Source: Clostridiales bacterium
GTDB taxonomy: Bacteria > Bacillota > Clostridia > Oscillospirales > CAG-272
Assembly: GCA_016281775.1 (NCBI GenBank)
Contig: JAEEJH010000034.1
Span: 1-51,502 of the forward strand
Direction of reading: 5' to 3'
DNA: 51,502 bases
Shown here: piece after piece, positions 10,775 to 22,679 of the stretch
How the letters are laid out: each line of letters opens with the position of its first letter
Position numbering within the stretch: the stretch's first letter is position 1
Program-made: the position numbers and the translations under genes
The notes under the pieces: generated by a model
The model's database searches: none
Seen by the model: only the letters and a program-made list of their open reading frames with translations
What the model was told of the DNA's origin: nothing

Positions 10775-10803
10775 TTGAAAATTCTATATATTAATGCTAT
10801 AAT
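10775..10803 (+). promoter_or_regulatory. Sigma-A type promoter for the aminotransferase-trpS unit
   Basis: TTGAAA, 17 nt, TATAAT. Confidence 0.65.
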
Positions 10804-10839: not shown

Positions 10840-12030
10840 ATGGATTTTGTGTTTTCCGACAATACCGCGCCGCTCAAACCGTCGGCAATCAGAGAAATAT
10901 TCAAGTCGCTTACCGATCCTGAGGTGATTTCCTTCGCCGCGGGCAATCCGTCGCCTGAGAGTTTTCCCGTTGCGGATATGAATAGGTTCGCCGACGCGAT
11001 CTTCGACGAATGTCCTTCGACAGCTTTACAGTACGGCATAACGGAAGGATATACCCCTCTGCGCGAAGCGGTGAGGATCCGCGCCGGATCGAGATTCGGC
11101 GTCTGTAAAGACAACGACACGGTCATAATAACTTCCGGCGGTCAGCAGGGCATAGATCTGACGGCGAAAGTATTCTGCAACAAAGGCGATACCGTTATAT
11201 GCGAAGAGCCGACTTTCATCGGTGCGCTGAACGCTTTTCGCGCTCACGGCTGTATTACCGCCGGCGTGCCTATGGACGAAGACGGTATCAATACGGACGC
11301 GCTTGAATTCGCGATCAAGACAGCGGTAAATCCGAAACTCATATATCTTATACCGACTTTTCAGAATCCGACCGGGAGGACTATGTCGGCGGAAAAGCGT
11401 GAAAGATGTCTGCAGCTTGCAAAGAAATACGGTCTGATGATACTCGAAGACGACCCATACGGCGAACTGCGGTTCTCGGGGAGTGAAATACCCCCGATCA
11501 AAAGCATGGATGCGGAAGGGAGAGTCGTTTACTGCAGCTCGTTTTCGAAGATACTCTCGTCAGGCATGCGTGTCGGTTACGTTATATGCGACGGCAAAGC
11601 CGCCTCGAAGATATCCGTATGCAAACAGGTAAACGACGTGCACACGAATCTGTTTTTCCAGATGGTGTGCCATAAATTCTTAACGGAATTCGATCTGGAT
11701 TCTCATATAAAAAAGATAAGAGAGCTTTACAGAAGAAAAAGCGCTCTGATGCTCGCTCAACTTGACGAAAAACTGCCTCGGTCGGTCCGGTATACGCGTC
11801 CCGACGGCGGACTGTTCATCTGGGCGGATCTGCCCGAAGAACTTGACTCAGACGCGATCATAAAAGAACTTGTCAGGAGGAAACTCGCCGTCGTACCGGG
11901 CGATACGTTCATTTGCGACAACGGCTCTCATTTGAACGGCTTTCGGATGAATTACTCAACGCCTTCAGACGAACAGATAATAAAAGGCGTCGGAATACTT
12001 GCAAACGTAATCAAAGAGAGGTCATTATAA
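10840..12030 (+). CDS. PLP-dependent class I/II aminotransferase (2-aminoadipate/MocR-type aminotransferase domain)
   Basis: ISFAAGNPSPESFP, ITSGGQQGIDLTAKVF, YLIPTFQNPTGRTMS, SSFSKILSSGMRVGY. Confidence 0.87.
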   Translation: MDFVFSDNTAPLKPSAIREIFKSLTDPEVISFAAGNPSPESFPVADMNRFADAIFDECPSTALQYGITEGYTPLREAVRIRAGSRFGVCKDNDTVIITSGGQQGIDLTAKVFCNKGDTVICEEPTFIGALNAFRAHGCITAGVPMDEDGINTDALEFAIKTAVNPKLIYLIPTFQNPTGRTMSAEKRERCLQLAKKYGLMILEDDPYGELRFSGSEIPPIKSMDAEGRVVYCSSFSKILSSGMRVGYVICDGKAASKISVCKQVNDVHTNLFFQMVCHKFLTEFDLDSHIKKIRELYRRKSALMLAQLDEKLPRSVRYTRPDGGLFIWADLPEELDSDAIIKELVRRKLAVVPGDTFICDNGSHLNGFRMNYSTPSDEQIIKGVGILANVIKERSL

Positions 12031-12031
12031 A

Positions 12032-13030
12032 ATGGAAAACGAAAGAAAGAAAACGGTATTTTCCGGCATACAGCCGAGCGGCAATCTCACCGTCGGCAAC
12101 TATCTCGGCGCGCTGCGCAACTTTTCGGAGTTTACCGATAAATACAACTGCCTTTACTGCGTGGTGGATCAGCACGCAATAACGGTAAGACAGCAGCCCG
12201 CGGAGCTACGCAGAAGGACTTACGAAGTCCTCGCGCTTTATATTGCGTGCGGACTCGACCCGGAGCAGAGCATACTCTACGTACAAAGCCACGTACCTCA
12301 GCATGCTCAACTCGCTTGGGTGCTCGACTGTTATACAATGTTCGGCGAGCTGTCGAGAATGACGCAGTTCAAGGATAAATCCGCAAAGAACGAAAACAAT
12401 ATCAACGCCGGTCTTTTCACGTATCCGGTGCTTATGGCGGCCGATATACTGCTCTATCAGACCGATCTCGTTCCGATAGGCGAAGACCAGAAACAGCATC
12501 TCGAACTTACGCGCGATATTGCGGCAAGATTCAACGCGGTATACTCCGATACGTTCGTGATACCCGAACCGTATATGAAGTCGGGCGCGAAAATATATTC
12601 TCTTGCGGAGCCGACGAAAAAAATGTCGAAATCGGATCAAAACGAAAACGCGGTCGTACGCATACTCGATCCTAAAGATACGATAATCAAAAAATTCCGC
12701 CGCGCCGTTACCGACTCCGAAACGGAAGTCAGACGGGCGGAAGGCAAAGAAGGCATTTCGAATCTGATGACGATCTATTCTTGCTTTACCGGCAAAAAGG
12801 ACGAAGAGATCGAAGCCGAATTCAAAGGCGTCGGATACGGCGAATTCAAGACCGCCGTCGGCGAAGCCTGTGCGGCGGAACTCGAGCCGATACAGAAGAG
12901 ATATAACGAGATCCTTTCCGATAAATCATATCTCGAATCGGTTATGAAAAACAACGCCGAAAAAGCGTCGTATCTCGCGAGAAAGACTCTTTCAAAGGTA
13001 TACAGAAAAGTTGGTTTCACGACGTTGTGA
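12032..13030 (+). CDS. trpS: Tryptophan--tRNA ligase
   Basis: FSGIQPSGNLTVGNYLGALRNF, PIGEDQKQHLELTRDIA, KKMSKSD. Confidence 0.95.
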   Translation: MENERKKTVFSGIQPSGNLTVGNYLGALRNFSEFTDKYNCLYCVVDQHAITVRQQPAELRRRTYEVLALYIACGLDPEQSILYVQSHVPQHAQLAWVLDCYTMFGELSRMTQFKDKSAKNENNINAGLFTYPVLMAADILLYQTDLVPIGEDQKQHLELTRDIAARFNAVYSDTFVIPEPYMKSGAKIYSLAEPTKKMSKSDQNENAVVRILDPKDTIIKKFRRAVTDSETEVRRAEGKEGISNLMTIYSCFTGKKDEEIEAEFKGVGYGEFKTAVGEACAAELEPIQKRYNEILSDKSYLESVMKNNAEKASYLARKTLSKVYRKVGFTTL

Positions 13031-13046
13031 TAATAACGGGGACTAA

Positions 13047-14243
13047 ATGAAAAAGAAAAAGTTCGACACGATAACGAAAATTTCAGCAATTCTCACAGCG
13101 GTACTTATAGTACTCGTGGGCGTTTTCTGTACGTCGCCTTCAAAAGCGGCCGACGAACCGTTTTTCCCGGTTTTTTCAGATACCGATGACGGTACGGAAG
13201 CAGCCGTTACGGAGACGGAAGCCGTCAGAGAAACCTATGAGACGATAGGCGAGATCCCGACAGACGATCCTGAAACAGATACAGTATCGCCAAGCGAAAC
13301 CGAAAAAGATACAAAAACCCCGGATACCGATATGACAGGTCATTCCGGGTCAGAGCAGACGAAAGATTATCCGCCAGATACGGAACCGGTCACTGTCAGA
13401 GTCACGGAACCCGTGACGACGAAAGCCCCTGCGTCTGCCGTAAAAGAGACCGAGCCGCCGGATCTGCCTGAATTTTCCGAACAGAGTTTCAGAGAGTATA
13501 CCGGCAGAGATCTCGGCGAAAACGAGACGATTTACGACAGATATGAAAACGATCGCTTTTCGGTCATTATAACGACTGTTGAAAAAGGCGATCTCAAGTA
13601 TTTTATCTGTGATATAGAGATAGAATCTCCGAAGGACTTTCATACGGCTTTTGCCGGTAATTCGATAACGGGCAGAGCGTATACGTCGAAGACCGCGTCG
13701 CAGGTCGGCGCAGTATTCGCCGTAAACGGCGATTTCTGCGGTTTCCGTACCTCGGGCATCATAATCAGGGAAGGCAATCTCTACAGAAACAGAGGTTCAA
13801 ACTGGGATTTCTGCTATCTCGACAAACACGGAGATATGATAACTACGAATCATTCCGTAGACGCAAAAAAACTTGTGGCGGAAGGGGCGTGGCAGTCCTG
13901 GAGCTTCGGTCCGACGCTCGTAAAGAACGGCAGAGCTCTCACTAAAGACGAATTCGTTACGCCCGGACTGAGCAGGACCGCGCGCGAACCGCGCACCGCG
14001 ATAGGTCAGGCCGGTAAACTGCACTATATCATAATCGTCGTAGACGCGGTAAGATCCGGCGGCAAAACGATAGGCGGCATGACGTTTGCGGATCTCGCGA
14101 AGACGTTTGCCGATCTCGGATGCACGACGGCTTACAATCTCGACGGCGGAGGATCGACGACGTTGTACTATAAAGGCAAGGTTATCAACGCTCCGTGCGT
14201 CAACGGTGAACGCAGCGTCAGCGACATCGTTTATTTCAAATAG
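13047..14243 (+). CDS. Membrane-anchored phosphodiester glycosidase (NAGPA/DUF2233 domain) with Thr/Pro/Glu-rich stalk
   Basis: N-terminal TM, low-complexity stalk, then GAVFAVNGDFCGF...SFGPTLVKNGRAL...PRTAIGQAG...AYNLDGGGSTTLYYKGKVIN. Confidence 0.87.
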   Translation: MKKKKFDTITKISAILTAVLIVLVGVFCTSPSKAADEPFFPVFSDTDDGTEAAVTETEAVRETYETIGEIPTDDPETDTVSPSETEKDTKTPDTDMTGHSGSEQTKDYPPDTEPVTVRVTEPVTTKAPASAVKETEPPDLPEFSEQSFREYTGRDLGENETIYDRYENDRFSVIITTVEKGDLKYFICDIEIESPKDFHTAFAGNSITGRAYTSKTASQVGAVFAVNGDFCGFRTSGIIIREGNLYRNRGSNWDFCYLDKHGDMITTNHSVDAKKLVAEGAWQSWSFGPTLVKNGRALTKDEFVTPGLSRTAREPRTAIGQAGKLHYIIIVVDAVRSGGKTIGGMTFADLAKTFADLGCTTAYNLDGGGSTTLYYKGKVINAPCVNGERSVSDIVYFK

Positions 14244-14244
14244 G

Positions 14245-15336
14245 ATGGAATTTATGCACGATCTTAAAAGATTTGTTATACTTATACCGGCTTACAAACC
14301 GGTATATGATCAGATGATACCTTTCGTAAAAGAACTTCTGACGAGCTTTGACAAGATAGTTACCGTAGACGACGGCGGAGGAGAAGCTTACGCCGACGTG
14401 TTTACGCATTGCGAATCGCTCGGATGCCGCGTACTGCGGCACGACGTGAACCGCGGCAAAGGCGCCGCGCTCAAAACGGGACTTAAATATATAGGTGAAG
14501 AGATCGCTGAAGCGGCGGGCGTGATAACGGCGGACTGCGACGGTCAGCACGCCGTATCCGATATTATCAAAGTCGCCGAAGCGCTCGAAGAACATCCTGA
14601 ATGTCTCGTTCTCGGCGGCAGACGTTTCGACGGCGACGTGCCGTTCAGATCACGTTTCGGCAACGCTTTTACAAGATGCGTGTTCAAGCTCGCGACGGGG
14701 CTTTCCGTCTACGATACGCAGACGGGCCTTCGCGGTATTCCGTCAGCGCTTATACCTGAGATGCTTACGCTTCAGGGTGACAGATACGAATTTGAGATGA
14801 ACATGCTCTTGAAGCTTCGCGAATGGGGAGTGACTCCGTTCGAGGTCACGATAAGAACGATATATTTGAACGACAACAAGGGCAGTCATTTCAACGCGTT
14901 CAAAGACGGACTGCGTATAAGCGCAAGAATAATAAAATATGCGGCGGGCAGCATACTGTCGTTTATAATAGATTACGCGCTGTTCCTGCTGCTGATGCTT
15001 GCCGTGTTTCCGCATCTCGAAAGCGAACTGAAGTATGCGCTTTGCTTCGGTCTTGCCCGTGCAGTGTCTTCGGTCGTGAATTATTTATACAACAGATTCG
15101 CGGTATTCGGCGGCAAGAACTATAAAAGAGGCGCGACGGTAAAGTATTTTTCGCTCGTTGTAGTTGTTATGCTTCTCGGTATGCTCGTTCAGCGGCTTAC
15201 CGCTTACGTTCCGGGCGGCGACGGGATTCATACGGTTATTAAAATAGTATACGATGCGGTTATGTTTTTCGTCAACTACATTATACAGCGCGATTTCGTA
15301 TTTAAAATTAAGGAAAGAAAAAGAGACGCTAAATGA
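14245..15336 (+). CDS. Glycosyltransferase family 2 fused to GtrA-like membrane domain
   Basis: VILIPAYKPVYDQ, TADCDGQHAV, DTQTGLRGIP (GT2), then multi-TM GtrA module with FGLARAVSSVVNYLYNRFAVF; start moved downstream of the preceding stop. Confidence 0.85.
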   Translation: MEFMHDLKRFVILIPAYKPVYDQMIPFVKELLTSFDKIVTVDDGGGEAYADVFTHCESLGCRVLRHDVNRGKGAALKTGLKYIGEEIAEAAGVITADCDGQHAVSDIIKVAEALEEHPECLVLGGRRFDGDVPFRSRFGNAFTRCVFKLATGLSVYDTQTGLRGIPSALIPEMLTLQGDRYEFEMNMLLKLREWGVTPFEVTIRTIYLNDNKGSHFNAFKDGLRISARIIKYAAGSILSFIIDYALFLLLMLAVFPHLESELKYALCFGLARAVSSVVNYLYNRFAVFGGKNYKRGATVKYFSLVVVVMLLGMLVQRLTAYVPGGDGIHTVIKIVYDAVMFFVNYIIQRDFVFKIKERKRDAK

Positions 15337-16328
15337 AACTTCCCCTGATATCCGGAGTATTCACGATGCACGGTGTATTCATCGCCTCAGCGCTTGTGCT
15401 GACGGTTTTTATATCAATCATATATTATAAAAAACGCGACGGCGATGAAACGCTGCTTTTGCAGATCGCCCCGTTTGCCGTATTCTTCGGATTTGCAGGC
15501 GCGAGATTCATGTACGTCACCGTATGCGATTCTCTGTATATAGAAGAAGCGGAGAAATGGCGTCTTCTTGACGGCGGTTACGCGCTTTTCGGCGCTCTGT
15601 ACGCGGTTGCGATAACTATAGTTATATTCTGCCTTGCGGTCAAAAAACGCGACAAGATATCCGGTGTGTTCGACGCCGTGTCTTTCGCCGCTCCGATAGC
15701 GATAGCCGTAGGAAGAATGGGCAGCGTGTTTTCGGAAGACTGCCTAGGTGAAACCGTCGAGTCGGATAAACTGAAATTCTTTCCCGTTGCGTTGTATTCG
15801 AATACTTACGGAGAATATCAGTACGCCGTGTTTTTCTATGAAGCCGCTTTCTGTATACTTGCGTTCGTTCTTATAGCTTACGTATGCAAAAAAACAAACA
15901 GAAAAGGCGTTGCGACGTATATGTTAACGGTCCTGTACTGCGGCGGCAGGAGTTTTTTCGAAACTCTGCGCTCCGACAGTATCTACGTCGCTTTCGTAAG
16001 AATATCGCAGGTCCTGGCGGCGCTGACGCTGATCGCGGCTTTCGTCGTGATGTGCGTAAAACTCGCTAAAAAGACCGGAGTCAAAGTAAAGCACCTGATC
16101 GCCTATACCGTTTTCACGGCGGCATTCGCGATCGCGTTCGTCTCGGAATTCTTCATGGGTTCCGAATCGAGATTCGGCAATACGCTCATAGTGTTCATCT
16201 GCTGTATCGTCCTGACGGTCACAGCGCTTTACGTCGGTTACGAGTATCTGCGCGCCGCAAAAACCGAAAAAAAGAAAAAAACCGCGACCGATAAATCTAA
16301 AAGAAGACGTAGGATTGCGGCAAGGTAA
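15333..16328 (+). CDS. Prolipoprotein diacylglyceryl transferase (Lgt)-like membrane protein, degenerate motifs
   Basis: Multi-TM; DGGYALFGALYA and AVGRMGSVFSEDCLGE resemble the Lgt HGG and GRxGNF regions; GGRSFFETLRSDS resembles the C-terminal Lgt motif. Confidence 0.65.
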   Translation: MKLPLISGVFTMHGVFIASALVLTVFISIIYYKKRDGDETLLLQIAPFAVFFGFAGARFMYVTVCDSLYIEEAEKWRLLDGGYALFGALYAVAITIVIFCLAVKKRDKISGVFDAVSFAAPIAIAVGRMGSVFSEDCLGETVESDKLKFFPVALYSNTYGEYQYAVFFYEAAFCILAFVLIAYVCKKTNRKGVATYMLTVLYCGGRSFFETLRSDSIYVAFVRISQVLAALTLIAAFVVMCVKLAKKTGVKVKHLIAYTVFTAAFAIAFVSEFFMGSESRFGNTLIVFICCIVLTVTALYVGYEYLRAAKTEKKKKTATDKSKRRRRIAAR

Positions 16329-16423
16329 ATACTGACAGAGAGATAAAAAATCAGGTTCCGGTATTGACAAATAAATCGGAATATGATAATTTATAGATAT
16401 AAAATATTTTTAAGGCGGTCGAA

Positions 16424-18049
16424 ATGAAAAACAGAGTAATAAAAGTGATTTGTCTGCTTATAACCGTTATGCTCCTTCTGCCGGCGGCGAGCTGTACCGG
16501 CAGCCCGGCAAATACCGATACTTCCGCGGAAATAACGGAAAAGCGGGCGGATACGACGGGAAAAACAGCGGCAACCGCAGAGGCGACGACTGAAGAAGCT
16601 CCGACCGGGAAGGTCACCGAAGCGGTGATTACCGAAGCGCCGGAAACCGAACCCCCTGCGACCGAGGCGCCGGCTGCTACCGAAAAGGTTACCGACCCCC
16701 CGACGACGGAGGCGCCGGCAACGACCGAGAAACCGGAAACTACGAAGGAGCCTGAGACTACGAAAGAGCCTGAGACCACGAGAGAACCCGTGACGACAAG
16801 GGAACCCGTTACGACGAAAGAACCGGTTACTACAAAAGAGCCGGTAACTACAGCCGCGCCTCCGGCGACGGACCCGCCTACCGAAGCGGCAGATAAAACG
16901 GAAGCGCCTGAAGTCATAGCCATGACGTCGCTTTCCGAAGACAGAGTACTCATTTACGGTTCGTGCGAAAAAGATTCCGTCATCAGAGTCTTCGGGACAA
17001 ACATTGCGGAAGAAATAAACGACGCGAACAGCACGTACTTTTATATTGAAGTCAGCGGCAGCGGAACACGGCTTGCGAAGATAACGGCTACTGCGCCGGG
17101 TAAAGCCGAGAGCAACCCGGTCGCCTTCAACGTAACTTTCGGCGGCGAAGGTAAAGAGGTGTGGGGCGGCAGAAACTCAAGACTGTTCTATCGTCCGACG
17201 CTCGACTTCCTTCTCGGAAACGTAAGAGCGAACGACGACACTCTGCAAAACGTGAAGGGTTATCTCTTGAACGGCGTTCTGCCGAACGTGCAGAACGCGA
17301 CGGGAAAAGATACTAAACTTATTTACGCGATAATCCCCGATCCCGCAACCTGTTATTATGACGAACAGAGAAGCTACGTCGCGAACAGCCTGACCGGGAG
17401 CGATCCGGTTTCACCGATGAGGCAGTTCGTTCAGACGATGAACGGAGCAAGCGACGATATATACGCCCTCGATCTTCTCACGGTACTGCGCCAGCATAAA
17501 GACGACAGGATCTATTTCACGACCGATACTCACTATACGGAATACGGCGCGTATTACGTATACCGTGAGATCATGAAAGTAGTCAAAAAATATCATCCTT
17601 CGTCAAGAGTAAGGACCGTGGAAGACGGCGATTACAGAATCGACTTTATAGACGTCAACGGCGGAGATATGTGCGGCATGGTGGGCATCAGCATGCGCGA
17701 AGTCGTACCGTTCTTTATAGCGAACTTTGAAGATACGGGATCTTACTATATATCCAAGCGTAACGACGGCATCAAATCAGCCGGCTTCGGCCCGGGCGGC
17801 TGGGAACGTTTCTCAACGCTCAACGATTCGAACAATCCGACGGCGTACGTGATCGGCGACTCTTACGGCTGCTACATACTGCCGTTTATAGGCGCCAACT
17901 TCTCTAAAGTCTGGACGAACGAAGGCGTGCTTTGGAATTACGGGATCGACTATTCTTTACTGGCTGAACAGAAACCGGATTACATAATCTTCGTCGTATG
18001 CGAGAGAAACGTACGCGGAGACCTCGGCCAGATACTGTCCATGACCTGA
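16424..18049 (+). CDS. DHHW/AlgX-type SGNH lipoprotein with Thr/Pro/Glu-rich stalk (paralog 1)
   Basis: Lipobox-like PAASC; ETTKEPETTKEP repeats; TDTHYTEYGAYYVY and VIGDSYGCYI motifs; C-terminal KPDYIIFVVCERNVRGDLGQ. Confidence 0.78.
   Translation: MKNRVIKVICLLITVMLLLPAASCTGSPANTDTSAEITEKRADTTGKTAATAEATTEEAPTGKVTEAVITEAPETEPPATEAPAATEKVTDPPTTEAPATTEKPETTKEPETTKEPETTREPVTTREPVTTKEPVTTKEPVTTAAPPATDPPTEAADKTEAPEVIAMTSLSEDRVLIYGSCEKDSVIRVFGTNIAEEINDANSTYFYIEVSGSGTRLAKITATAPGKAESNPVAFNVTFGGEGKEVWGGRNSRLFYRPTLDFLLGNVRANDDTLQNVKGYLLNGVLPNVQNATGKDTKLIYAIIPDPATCYYDEQRSYVANSLTGSDPVSPMRQFVQTMNGASDDIYALDLLTVLRQHKDDRIYFTTDTHYTEYGAYYVYREIMKVVKKYHPSSRVRTVEDGDYRIDFIDVNGGDMCGMVGISMREVVPFFIANFEDTGSYYISKRNDGIKSAGFGPGGWERFSTLNDSNNPTAYVIGDSYGCYILPFIGANFSKVWTNEGVLWNYGIDYSLLAEQKPDYIIFVVCERNVRGDLGQILSMT
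16735..16855 (+). repeat. Degenerate 21-bp tandem repeat encoding ETTKEP/VTTKEP stalk
   Basis: ETTKEPETTKEPETTREPVTTREPVTTKEPVTTKEPVTT. Confidence 0.8.
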
Positions 18050-18064
18050 TGCAAGGAGAAAACA

Positions 18065-20101
18065 ATGAAGCGTTTTATAAGAATCATATCCGCGCTGATC
18101 GCGGCGCTGATGCTGATATCCGTATTTGCATGCGAGCCTGCCAGGCCCGTACCGGTCACCGATACGGCGGCCGCGTCGGAAACGGTCAAACAAACCGAGG
18201 CGCAGACCGAACCCGAAACCGAAACGCCGGAAACGGTGACGGACAAAGTTACCGAGACCGAAAAGATCACCGAACCGGCAACTACAGAGAAACTGACCGC
18301 GGCTCCCGATACCGAACCGCCCACGGAACCGCCTACCGAGGCGCCGACGACGGAACCCCCGACCGAACCTCCTACCGAACCTCCGACGACAGAACCTCCG
18401 ACGGATCCGCCTACCGAGGCGCCGACGGAACCGCCGACGGAGCCGCCGACGACGGAGGAACCGCCGATCGACTACAGAACTACCGACAGTAAGTATTTCA
18501 CGTTCACGGAACTTGACGACGGCACTTACGAAATAGCCGCGAAAGACATTAGAAAAATGCCTTACACCGTCGTTTTGCCTTCGACATACAACGGCATCCC
18601 CGTAACGCGTGTAGCGACCAACGGCTTTGCGTACTGCACGCCGATAAAGAATCTTATAATACCGGAAAACTACGTAATTCTGAGAAACTACTGTTTTTTC
18701 CACTGTACGAATCTTAAATACGTAGAGCTTACGGACGGATTGAATACTTTGGAATACGGAGTATTCGGCGGCTGCACAAAACTCCCCGAAATAATTCTGC
18801 CAGCAGGTATATCTTCTCTGTATCCGCTCATATTCAAAGAATGCACGGCGCTTAAAAGCGTTAAGTTCGACGATCCCGACGGCTGGATCGCCGGCGTGGA
18901 CAAGATAGCGAGATCCGTGCTTTCTAATCCGACTTCGGCGGCTAAAGCGCTGAAGAACGAATACCTTGAGAGATCGCTCAAGAAAGAAACTGCAGCGGCG
19001 ATCAAGAATATCAAGATGAAGACGATAAACGACGGTATAAACGGCAACGTTCTCGTGCTTTACTGCGAGACGGAAGAGTATGCGACCGTCACGGTCACAG
19101 ATCTCGTTACCGGCAAAGTCCTTGTCAAAGAAAAAGCCCTCGGTCCGTATTTCTACGGCATGGTACTTCTGCCCGCAGGTCAGACCAAGCTTGTTTCCAT
19201 AAAGGCTCAGGCGGACGGAAAACCCGTTTCAAAAACTCTTATCAGAAGACTTCAGCATACCGCCGACGTCGGCAACGGAGCTTTTATAGGTAAGAACAGC
19301 CACGTTTACCTAAATTATTACGATGCGTTTTACTGGGGCGGCGTCGCAGTTTCACAGGAACATATGAATAACGTGAGAGGCTACCTCAAAAACAGACTGC
19401 AGGCTGTCAGAGATCTTACCGGCAAAAACACGAAGATAATAATGGTGATATGCACCAACCCCGCCACCATATATCACAGCCTGCAATATCCGCGCGAGCA
19501 GGGAGGCAGAGGCGACTATTTCCTTAGCACGCCGTCTACCCAGTTTGCCGAATTTATGAAGGACGACGAGGATATATACGTTCTCGATCTGCGCGAGATA
19601 CTTTCGCAGCATACAGACAGACTGCTGTTCATGCAGGCGGATTCACACTGGACTCAGATAGCGGCGTATTACGCATATTATCTTGCGATTCAGAAGATAA
19701 AAATCGATTTTCCCGCTCTGCCTACGTACGATCTCGACCGTGATTTCAATGTAACTCATAACACTTCCGGCGGAGATCTGCTCAACTTCATGGGCATGTC
19801 CGGAATGGGCGCCCGCGCTCTGAACGCGTCCGTTTCCCCGAAGCGCGACGATATGAAGGTAGGTCCCGACGCCCCGACCGCGTACATAATGGGCGACTCC
19901 TACTACTGGGCTATGTCGAATTATTACGACTATATGTTCAGCGAAGTATATCTCAATGAACCGGAGTCGAACCCGCCGCTGTACGACTATCATCTGAACA
20001 ATCTCGCCGAGAGAAAACCCGATTATCTGTTATACGTATGGACGGAAAGAAACATCGGCGGCGACCTCGGTATCATGCTGCAGATGAACGAGATCAACTG
20101 A
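18065..20101 (+). CDS. DHHW/AlgX-type SGNH lipoprotein with stalk and inserted BspA-type LRR module (paralog 2)
   Basis: Lipobox VFAC; TEPPTEPPTEAP stalk; LRR_5-like FAYCTPIKNLIIPENYVILRNYCFFHCTNLKYVELTDGLNTLEYGVFGGCTKL; DSHWTQIAAYYAY; IMGDSYYWAM. Confidence 0.8.
   Translation: MKRFIRIISALIAALMLISVFACEPARPVPVTDTAAASETVKQTEAQTEPETETPETVTDKVTETEKITEPATTEKLTAAPDTEPPTEPPTEAPTTEPPTEPPTEPPTTEPPTDPPTEAPTEPPTEPPTTEEPPIDYRTTDSKYFTFTELDDGTYEIAAKDIRKMPYTVVLPSTYNGIPVTRVATNGFAYCTPIKNLIIPENYVILRNYCFFHCTNLKYVELTDGLNTLEYGVFGGCTKLPEIILPAGISSLYPLIFKECTALKSVKFDDPDGWIAGVDKIARSVLSNPTSAAKALKNEYLERSLKKETAAAIKNIKMKTINDGINGNVLVLYCETEEYATVTVTDLVTGKVLVKEKALGPYFYGMVLLPAGQTKLVSIKAQADGKPVSKTLIRRLQHTADVGNGAFIGKNSHVYLNYYDAFYWGGVAVSQEHMNNVRGYLKNRLQAVRDLTGKNTKIIMVICTNPATIYHSLQYPREQGGRGDYFLSTPSTQFAEFMKDDEDIYVLDLREILSQHTDRLLFMQADSHWTQIAAYYAYYLAIQKIKIDFPALPTYDLDRDFNVTHNTSGGDLLNFMGMSGMGARALNASVSPKRDDMKVGPDAPTAYIMGDSYYWAMSNYYDYMFSEVYLNEPESNPPLYDYHLNNLAERKPDYLLYVWTERNIGGDLGIMLQMNEIN
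18310..18466 (+). repeat. Low-complexity TEPPTEPP/TEAPT-coding repeat
   Basis: TEPPTEPPTEAPTTEPPTEPPTEPPTTEPPTDPPTEAPTEPPTEPPTTEEPP. Confidence 0.8.
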
Positions 20102-20108
20102 TTTTACC

Positions 20109-20134
20109 TATCACCGCGCAATAACGCGGTGATA
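20109..20134 (+). terminator. Hairpin between SGNH paralogs 2 and 3, possible terminator/attenuator
   Basis: TATCACCGCG caataa CGCGGTGATA followed by cttttaac. Confidence 0.5.
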
Positions 20135-20151
20135 CTTTTAACGGAGATATT

Positions 20152-21507
20152 ATGAAAACTAAACTCATACAGATTCTTGCGGCTTCTCTGACTCTTTTGC
20201 TTCTGTTTTCCTGCACGCCCGCCGCACCTACCGAGACCGAAAGACAGGATACCGAAACTGCCGAGACCGAAAGACAGGATACCGAAACTGCCGCGGCCAC
20301 GGCGCAGGAAGGAACGGAAAACGTTACCGAAACAATCACGGAATGCGTGACCGAGGCCGTTGACGACAAGGAGATCAGACTTCCCACCGATAAGGGAAAA
20401 TATAAAGAAAAGACTTCGCTCGTTACGTCGGCGACTTTCAAAAGCGTCAGACAGCGTACGGATTCGGATGTAAGAGACGTAATAATCTACTGCGAGACCG
20501 AACCGAATGCGACGGTTTACGTATGCGACAAGCACAAAACCGTTTTGAGATGCGAAAGAGCGTACGGTCCCTGTTTTTACACCGCTTTGCCTCTTGCGGA
20601 GGATGAGACTTTGGGGATAAGTATCTACGCGCAGGCGGACGGCAAGGCGTTATCGAACGCGGTGAAAATGACGCTGAAGCATACAGACAGCGTGGGCGTG
20701 AACGTCTTCTGCGGAAAAGACAGCAAAATATATCTTAACTGGTATGACGATCATTACTACGGCAGGGTTGCGTCCTCCGACGATGATCTCGCCGTTGCGG
20801 AAATGATGATCAGAGAAAACGTCAGGCAGGCAAGAGAACTGACCGGCAAAAACACGAAGATCATTGTTCTGGTCGCCACCAACCCCGCGGTCATATATCA
20901 CGACAGACAGTATGAAGAGCCTTTCGGCAGAGGCGACAGTCTTTCGGAGACGTCTTCAACGCTCATGGCTAAACGGCTTAAAGACGATCCCGACATATAT
21001 TTTATAGACTGCCGTGAAGTACTTTTATCGCACAGAGACGAGGAGATATTCTACCAGACCGATTCGCACTGGACACATCTCGGCGCGTATTACTGTTATC
21101 TTGAGATGATGAATTACGTTCACAAAGATTTTCCGAACGCGCCGGTCGCTGAGCTGTTGAAGTACAATATTATACGCGATTACAGAATAAGCGATTTAAT
21201 GACGGATAACTTTTTAAACGGTTACGGTATCGGTATGAGAGAATACACTTCGTATATCTATCAGACTCCCGTATCGCGAGTGATAAACAATTATTCGCCT
21301 TCGATATATTACGTCGGCGATTCGTATACGGGTGCGATAAACGGATTTTTCTATGACACGTTTTCGGCTTGCACCACAAACGAACTTTACAACTATACGT
21401 TCAAAAATCTGAAAAAACTTCAGCCTGATTATCTTGTATACGTTTTTACCGAACGTAATCTTGACAGTCAGTGCAGCATCGTCTGGGCGCAGACGACGGT
21501 GGAATAA
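20152..21507 (+). CDS. DHHW/AlgX-type SGNH lipoprotein (paralog 3)
   Basis: Lipobox LFSC; ETERQDTETA repeats; DSHWTHLGAYYCY; YVGDSYTGAI; C-terminal QPDYLVYVFTERNLDSQ shared with the other two. Confidence 0.78.
   Translation: MKTKLIQILAASLTLLLLFSCTPAAPTETERQDTETAETERQDTETAAATAQEGTENVTETITECVTEAVDDKEIRLPTDKGKYKEKTSLVTSATFKSVRQRTDSDVRDVIIYCETEPNATVYVCDKHKTVLRCERAYGPCFYTALPLAEDETLGISIYAQADGKALSNAVKMTLKHTDSVGVNVFCGKDSKIYLNWYDDHYYGRVASSDDDLAVAEMMIRENVRQARELTGKNTKIIVLVATNPAVIYHDRQYEEPFGRGDSLSETSSTLMAKRLKDDPDIYFIDCREVLLSHRDEEIFYQTDSHWTHLGAYYCYLEMMNYVHKDFPNAPVAELLKYNIIRDYRISDLMTDNFLNGYGIGMREYTSYIYQTPVSRVINNYSPSIYYVGDSYTGAINGFFYDTFSACTTNELYNYTFKNLKKLQPDYLVYVFTERNLDSQCSIVWAQTTVE
20231..20292 (+). repeat. 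Perfect 30-bp tandem duplication
   Basis: CCGAGACCGAAAGACAGGATACCGAAACTG repeated twice exactly, followed by CC; encodes ETERQDTETA x2. Confidence 0.9.
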
Positions 21508-22632
21508 ATGAATATTAAAAAAGTATATAACGGTATTGACCGCACCGATACGCTTCCGCTCTTAAAAGAAGGCCGACTCGGACTTATCACGAACCATTCC
21601 GGCGTAACGAGGGAAATGAAACCTTCGTATGAACTTTTGTACGAAAAGTATCGGCTGACGGCTCTGTTTTCACCCGAGCACGGCATTTACGGAGCTGCTC
21701 AGGCGGGCGCGAAGGTCGACGAAGTCGAATATGAAAGCGTTACCGGCACACCGGTTTACAGCCTGTACGGCGGAAAGACCGCGCCCGATATGCAGATGCT
21801 TGAAAACGTCGACGTTCTGTGTTTCGATATACAGGACGTCGGCGCGAGATTCTACACGTATCTGTACACCATGACTCGCAGCATGAAAGCCGCGAAAGCT
21901 AAAGGAATACCTTTCGTTGTTTTTGACAGGATCAATCCGGTCGGGCTTGAGAGCGTTCAGGGTGAGATACTCGACGAAGCGAACGCTTCTTTTGTCGGCG
22001 AGTATTCAGTACCGCACAGATACGGGTTGACTATCGGCGAGTTTGCAAGGTATATAAATTCAGAAAAGAATATAAACGCTGAACTTTACGTGATACCGTG
22101 CCGCGGACTTGACAGAAGTACGTACTTCAGAGATACCGATTTGTGTTTCGTTGCTCCGTCGCCGAATATGTCGTCGCCGGAAACAGCGCTCGTATATACG
22201 GGAACTTGCATTTTCGAGGCGGTCAAAAACGTCAGCGAGGGCAGGGGAACGACTCAGCCGTTTGAGCTGATCGGCGCTCCGTATATCGACGAACGCGAAC
22301 TGTGCGATTATATGAACGCATACGGCCTGCCCGGGGCTGTCGCAAGAAAAGTCAGATTCGTACCGACTTTTTCAAAATTTCAGGGTGAGCTTTGCCGCGG
22401 CATACAGATCCACGTTACCGACAGAGAAGCGTTTTCACCTTTCGAATACGGATATATACTTATATCTCATCTTCGCGAGCTGTACGATATACAGCTTACC
22501 GAGGCAGGCTCGAAACGTATTTTCGGCACGTCGCGTTTATACGAAAAAACGCCCCCCGATATACTGTTTCCGGATTGCCGCAGAAAGTGTGAAGAATTCA
22601 GAAAAAGCACCGAAAAATACAAACTGTATTAA
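21508..22632 (+). CDS. DUF1343 / NamZ-like exo-beta-N-acetylmuramidase family protein
   Basis: GRLGLITNHSGVTRE, ALFSPEHGIYGAAQAGAKV, VDVLCFDIQDVGARFYTYLYTM, VAPSPNMSSPETALVYTGTCIFE. Confidence 0.9.
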   Translation: MNIKKVYNGIDRTDTLPLLKEGRLGLITNHSGVTREMKPSYELLYEKYRLTALFSPEHGIYGAAQAGAKVDEVEYESVTGTPVYSLYGGKTAPDMQMLENVDVLCFDIQDVGARFYTYLYTMTRSMKAAKAKGIPFVVFDRINPVGLESVQGEILDEANASFVGEYSVPHRYGLTIGEFARYINSEKNINAELYVIPCRGLDRSTYFRDTDLCFVAPSPNMSSPETALVYTGTCIFEAVKNVSEGRGTTQPFELIGAPYIDERELCDYMNAYGLPGAVARKVRFVPTFSKFQGELCRGIQIHVTDREAFSPFEYGYILISHLRELYDIQLTEAGSKRIFGTSRLYEKTPPDILFPDCRRKCEEFRKSTEKYKLY

Positions 22633-22640
22633 AACAAAAA

Positions 22641-22665
22641 ACTGCCGCGGATTTGCCGCGGCAGT
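22641..22665. terminator. Intrinsic terminator between convergent namZ-like and gap genes
   Basis: ACTGCCGCGG atttg CCGCGGCAGT. Confidence 0.7.
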
Positions 22666-22679
22666 TATGCGTTTTGTAA

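Follow-up and report, generated by a model that had tools for sequence, protein, structure and literature searches.

A candidate glycan-modification module with a GT2-GtrA fusion, a phosphodiester glycosidase and an altered Lgt-like protein in uncultured Clostridia

A GT2 glycosyltransferase and a GtrA protein represent two of the three components of classical transmembrane glycosylation systems (PMC8035078). In Bacillus subtilis, UshA (YqjL) frees undecaprenyl phosphate (UndP) from UndP-linked sugars (PMC11898649). For the AlgX and AlgJ proteins, a triad arrangement consisting of a D-x-H pair and a serine has been described (PMC4148444), and for Lgt of Escherichia coli the residues Y26, H103, R143, N146, G154 and R239 have been shown to be absolutely required (PMC13251419; see also PMC4728403). 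Here, we describe a locus of seven genes, g1 to g7, in which GT2, GtrA, AlgX-like and Lgt-like proteins are encoded next to a NAGPA-type phosphodiester glycosidase and a NamZ-type muramidase. It is located on contig JAEEJH010000034.1 of a Clostridiales bacterium (assembly GCA_016281775.1), of which a stretch of 51,502 nucleotides, called the window in the following, was analyzed. This locus may be an operon-like module that modifies an extracytoplasmic glycan, in which case it would be a variant among the multi-component transmembrane glycosylation systems; we hold this reading to be right or wrong with equal probability. The genes of the module are:

g1, 13047..14243, + strand: NAGPA; an N-terminal hydrophobic segment, a stalk of ~100 amino acids rich in Thr and Glu and the NAGPA phosphodiester glycosidase domain (13707-14237)
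g2, 14248..15336, + strand: GT2-GtrA; a GT2 glycosyltransferase fused to a GtrA/DPMS transmembrane domain (14935-15303)
g3, 15333..16328, + strand: Lgt-like; a membrane protein of the Lgt fold with a C-terminal extension of ~2 transmembrane helices
g4, 16424..18049, + strand: SGNH lipoprotein 1; lipobox AASC, triad motifs DTH and GDSY
g5, 18065..20101, + strand: SGNH lipoprotein 2; a BspA-type leucine-rich repeat (LRR) domain (about 18611-18871) between stalk and SGNH domain
g6, 20152..21507, + strand: SGNH lipoprotein 3; a beta-sandwich-like domain followed by the SGNH domain
g7, 21508..22632, + strand: NamZ-type exo-beta-N-acetylmuramidase

An initial annotation, made from the letters of the sequence, had described seven consecutive genes on one strand with short or overlapping junctions, encoding NAGPA, GT2/GtrA, Lgt-like, three AlgX/DHHW-type SGNH and NamZ-like proteins. 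This picture holds: the open reading frames (ORFs) lie as listed, their junctions measure, in order, +4, -4, +95, +15, +50 and 0 bases, and every family named for the seven ORFs was recovered by Pfam searches with the window proteins (for g2, NCBIfam was used as well). For g2, a longer ORF starting with TTG at 14086 overlaps the NAGPA gene, and the start is most likely at 14248.

What the analysis shows for the module is its gene content, gene order, conservation and folds; the following pathway is inferred. The GT2 part of g2 would load a sugar onto UndP inside the cell and the GtrA part would flip the lipid-linked sugar outward. On the extracytoplasmic side, g1 would act on a sugar-1-phosphodiester, most likely the lipid-linked sugar provided by g2, either releasing the carrier or transferring the sugar; a phosphodiester-linked sugar on an acceptor polymer would be the alternative substrate. 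The SGNH lipoproteins, tethered outside, would O-acylate the glycan, and since the only MBOAT gene is encoded elsewhere, the acyl groups would be supplied in trans. The Lgt-like g3, which keeps residues for holding a phospholipid head group but not the full set required for lipidating lipoproteins, most likely serves as an accessory that binds lipid or carries out an altered transfer. For NamZ a cytoplasmic location is probable, where it would recover N-acetylmuramic acid (MurNAc) from wall fragments that are returned to the cell.

In g2, both Glycos_transf_2 (PF00535, E=1e-10) and GtrA (PF04138, E=9e-9) were detected, the latter above cut-off in the g2 proteins of all 12 genomes of the genus. 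The best NCBIfam match was PpgS (E=2e-19, far below the cut-off of the model), a sequence search of the PDB gave no match, and the motifs DDGGG, DCDGQH and RYEFEMN can be read directly, the GT2 domain carrying motifs of the DPMS type. g2 is a putative polyprenyl-phosphate sugar synthase and flippase. The g1 protein matches NAGPA (PF09992) with E=6e-36, a domain present in 76 of the 98 relatives searched. Members of the NAGPA family act on sugar-1-phosphodiesters, and an undecaprenyl-phosphate sugar is one such compound. Together with the precedent of UshA, this substrate class makes it a good guess, by analogy, that g1 acts on an undecaprenyl-phosphate sugar.

Furthermore, the two genes recur as a pair. 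Among 18 further loci with a GT2-GtrA homolog outside the module, taken from the family and the order, nine have a NAGPA gene adjacent to it (L129, L133, L134, L135, L141, L143 and L145) or one gene away (L130 and L132), always on the same strand; in L131 it is three genes away. A gene for a PAP2 phosphatase is found nearby in L131 and L134, as assigned by Pfam, and in L133 and L135, as judged by sequence similarity only. L130, L131 and L134 also encode a protein of ~500 amino acids without a Pfam match near the pair. For the class, 246 genomes were sampled, of which 43 contain a GT2-GtrA homolog, and the 29 best-scoring loci besides that of the window, which is not a random choice, were read. 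Here, NAGPA directly adjoins GT2-GtrA on the same strand in seven (L164, L167-L170, L172 and L174), so that the adjacency extends to other genera and families. This corresponds to a P of about 1e-8 at an assumed chance of 1% per locus, a rate that was estimated from the size of the genomes and the number of NAGPA copies in them and is not a matched control. The adjacency at these loci of order and class suggests an uncharacterized two-gene core. Tentatively, and with a probability that we regard as rather low, GT2-GtrA and NAGPA could form a core that recurs across Clostridia, with NAGPA acting on the undecaprenyl-phosphate sugar itself, either as a hydrolase releasing the carrier or as a transglycosidase replacing a GT-C protein. 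To this core the present locus would add, specifically in its lineage, an altered Lgt and SGNH lipoproteins that resemble acyltransferases. A literature search retrieved no publication tying NAGPA-domain proteins to lipid-carrier sugars, and none on GtrA with a phosphodiester glycosidase or on Lgt with GtrA and SGNH proteins. The recurring pair gives NAGPA proteins a concrete candidate substrate.

The second half of the module encodes the SGNH lipoproteins, which match ALGX in Pfam (g4 E=9e-11, g5 E=9e-7, g6 E=8e-10). DHHW is above the cut-off in two of the three (g4 E=5e-9) and g5 additionally matches LRR_5 (E=9e-17). The D-x-H pair and the serine of the D-S-Y motif are invariant in all 28 aligned proteins, 27 of which belong to modules, the other being encoded 4.5 kb downstream of the module in genome G023. 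The SGNH domain of g6 was modeled by AlphaFold with a predicted local distance difference test (pLDDT) score of 90.7, and its matches among PDB structures at E<=1e-3 are only AlgJ, AlgX (one entry being an AlgKX complex), PatB1 and a DHHW protein. One MBOAT gene is present in 11 of the 12 genomes of the genus, on other contigs than the module. Where its surroundings were read (three loci, L126-L128), an SGNH/DHHW-type gene of its own comes next, which leaves the SGNH proteins of the module without a local MBOAT; in genome G000 the contig ends inside the MBOAT gene, before any partner gene. Such acyltransferase-like lipoproteins without a local MBOAT bear on the route by which acyl groups reach proteins of this kind. 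Related proteins also occur outside the module: L106 (248-5223, contig C51 of genome G003) encodes two tandem proteins of ~770-780 amino acids scoring 469 and 327 bits with the module SGNH profile, and in three genomes of the genus a tandem pair of AlgX-like proteins of ~700 amino acids is encoded without module genes (L102:7787-12218, L103:7303-11569 and L104:6403-10712).

The last gene, g7, matches NamZ_N (E=6e-75) and NamZ_C (E=7e-43). The initial annotation had proposed that the locus builds, decorates and trims a surface glycan. Lipid-linked sugar synthesis and acylation are supported at the level of family, fold and triad. The trimming by NamZ does not, since no signal peptide was seen in g7 or its orthologs, their N-termini being judged by eye, and recycling fits better.

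NamZ being a family of peptidoglycan enzymes, the locus could also be understood as a system for wall turnover, in which the SGNH proteins would be de-O-acetylases, NAGPA would strip sugars from a phosphodiester-linked wall polymer, NamZ would finish the MurNAc fragments inside the cell and g2 would belong to an unrelated glycosylation. The missing MBOAT next to the SGNH genes would fit this, as would the acetylesterase activity of AlgJ in vitro (PMC4148444). On the contrary, no esterase is among the solved structures matched at E<=1e-3, all of which represent glycan O-acetyltransferases or a DHHW protein, and GT2-GtrA and NAGPA are also adjacent at loci that lack NamZ and the SGNH genes of the module, which points to a link with the lipid-linked sugar. 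Wall turnover is considered unlikely.

Conservation was studied on the contigs of relatives around Lgt-like matches, whose genes were mapped to the window by BLASTP. NAGPA, GT2-GtrA and the Lgt-like gene follow trpS in this order in all 12 genomes of the genus (in G008, the contig ends within the Lgt-like gene), and the module is complete through NamZ in all nine with spanning contigs; in G004, G006 and G008 contig ends cut the module. Complete loci of the genus have two or three SGNH genes. G023, from another genus of the same family, contains NAGPA, GT2-GtrA, Lgt-like, one SGNH gene and NamZ in identical order, located after recG-mscS instead of trpS and thus at a different chromosomal site. 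According to the initial annotation, at least four of the genes staying together in relatives would support a functional system, whereas homologs scattered without adjacency would speak against it; the former was found, across the genus and at a new site in a second genus. Using a profile of the Lgt-like protein on 395 genomes of the family, the genomes with the module score at least 453 bits (185 for the cut fragment of G008), whereas the next best matches reach at most 129 bits, as is usual for ordinary Lgt proteins. Accordingly, the profile search retrieved no ortholog in the ~380 other sampled genomes of the family, including G126, the second genome of the genus of G023 in the sample, which is 73% complete. 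The public records of the module loci are metagenome-assembled genomes of uncultured Clostridia, several of them labeled as rumen and that of G023 as sheep rectum. Compared with the nearest relative, G005, all seven genes have a ratio of nonsynonymous to synonymous substitution rates (dN/dS) of 0.065-0.11 at a dS of 0.9-2.1, which is near saturation, so that the values reveal constraint and not precise rates. This indicates genes under purifying selection and not chance ORFs.

Unrelated envelope genes could have been kept together in a young genus by mere inertia of gene order, riding in a trpS operon. The upstream order murD-aminotransferase-trpS is conserved in the genus as well, and due to this genus-only adjacency is weak evidence and was set aside; the argument was built instead on the site in the second genus and on the 3' flanks, which change. 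The aminotransferase and trpS are shared genus-wide but absent at the locus of G023, where the module order is repeated. The 3' flank is gapdh in G000 and G005, whereas other genomes have genes for a GNAT acetyltransferase and a TIM-barrel protein there, while most module orthologs are ~50-70% identical. Since the GT2-GtrA/NAGPA adjacency is furthermore found in other families of the class, inertia appears quite improbable.

The Lgt-like g3 matches LGT (PF01790) with E=4e-29. Its AlphaFold model is of medium confidence (pLDDT 69), with E. coli Lgt as the best PDB match (5azb, Foldseek E=9e-5). For a comparison of residues, 12 proteins of the module clade were aligned with 48 Lgt proteins of relatives. 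E. coli numbering is used, to which the PDB-chain numbers printed in the alignment add 1. The aligned fragment of the E. coli protein does not include Y26, whose position was set with the conserved WY-[GA] motif. In the relatives, Y26, N146, N149 and E151 are found in all 48 proteins. In the module clade, Y26 is H in 11 of 12 (Y in one), N146 is S and N149 is S or T in all 12, and E151 is D in 11, which bears out the earlier description of a degenerate Lgt-like protein. The equivalents of R143, G154, E243 and R246 are kept in all 12 proteins and that of R239 in 11. H103 is replaced by F or Y, but Y also occupies this position in 47 of the 48 canonical Lgts from relatives. The position is hence not diagnostic in this lineage, and its loss as the mark of a dead Lgt was rejected. 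In the phylogenetic tree, the module clade is monophyletic (support 1.0) on a long stem, separate from other Lgts, and a canonical Lgt is encoded elsewhere in the same genome. The changes at N146 and Y26 make an ordinary Lgt unlikely; judging from the sequence, g3 has the Lgt fold and is very likely not an ordinary Lgt. The clade presents an Lgt fold that is under selection although two residues on which the E. coli enzyme depends have been lost.

Least probable, and in our view very doubtful, is a dedicated lipidation, in which g3 would be reserved for particular proteins, lipidating the neighboring SGNH lipoproteins or else the N-terminal cysteine of NAGPA: the gene does have NAGPA on one side and the lipoprotein genes on the other, the equivalents of R143, R239, E243 and R246 are kept and the cysteine motif is present in all NAGPA orthologs (window 13119-13148; G-x-[LF]-CTSPSKA throughout the genus, CSSSSK in G023) with genus-wide matches outside NAGPA not exceeding a reversed-pattern control, but Y26 and N146 (PMC13251419) are changed, a canonical Lgt is available, the lipoboxes of the SGNH proteins are ordinary and the L or F before the conserved cysteine is outside the classical lipobox, the motif being readable as a signal-peptidase site (SKA-AD). 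Because of the same control, CTSPSKA as the mark of a whole protein class is unsupported.

Other unusual Lgt-like proteins were encountered as well. Most Lgt-like paralogs of other genera (L046-L053) carry GRxGCLxAGCCHG, in which C takes the place of N146, much as in MSMEG_5408 and the Lgt of Leptospira, for which N146C has been described; they fall outside the module clade, and their loci lack the module. A second non-canonical Lgt-like protein of 237 amino acids (L068:8585-9298, contig C178 of genome G000), in which MRVGCFFNGCCGG replaces the signature, is encoded beside very large surface-type proteins.

The same-strand run begins before g1, with an aminotransferase gene and trpS, the gaps up to NAGPA being 1 and 16 bases. 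In a promoter scan, the best promoter-like site is at 10775, 5' of the aminotransferase; the matches total 14 against 13.9 by chance, and the promoter and terminator scans overall are at chance level. The flanking features are:

10840..13030, + strand: aminotransferase (from 10840) and trpS (from 12032), the neighbors 5' of NAGPA, not part of the proposed pathway
22640-22666: an 11-bp GC-rich inverted repeat between NamZ and the convergent gapdh, a candidate bidirectional terminator (consensus match only)

Several observations weigh against a glycan-modifying module. Pfam revealed no GT-C gene among the seven proteins. Each of the 12 genomes of the genus encodes YfhO at another place, and ten of them contain a second stand-alone GtrA, so that YfhO need not use the product of g2; the idea of g2 as the only GtrA, and hence the obligatory partner of YfhO, was rejected on this ground. 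GT2 proteins of the DPMS/GtrB type usually form beta-linked lipid sugars, whereas the animal NAGPA cleaves an alpha link. The module lacks an MBOAT gene, and the only one elsewhere has its own DHHW partner. The gap of 95 bases, the largest within the module, divides the NAGPA-GT2-Lgt half from the SGNH-NamZ half and could make two units of it. Finally, the distribution of the full module is narrow, one genus and one further genome.

With the CsbB-GtcA-YfhO-type systems (PMC8035078), the module shares, by sequence, a GT2-type carrier-sugar synthase and a GtrA-type flippase. In contrast to these, both are fused, a GT-C protein is missing from the locus and a phosphodiester glycosidase gene is adjacent instead. 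UshA performs the same job as one of the options proposed for g1 but resembles alpha/beta hydrolases and belongs to another family. The MBOAT-SGNH O-acyltransferases (AlgI/J/X, PatA/B and PatA1/B1; PMC12148441) have in common with g4 to g6 the SGNH fold, the Asp-x-His/Ser triad and the extracytoplasmic location, whereas the module has no adjoining MBOAT and contains one to three lipoprotein genes in tandem, of which one encodes an LRR domain. From Lgt, g3 retains the fold and the equivalents of R143, G154, R239, E243 and R246; it differs by Y26H, N146S, N149S/T, E151D, the C-terminal extension and its separate long-stem clade. The nearest described parallel is MSMEG_5408 of M. smegmatis, which has Y26H and N146C and a presumed low activity (PMC13251419). 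g7 shares both domains with the NamZ exo-beta-N-acetylmuramidase and differs in that a signal peptide was not seen. Taken together, the module is new as an assembly and is built from known kinds of component.

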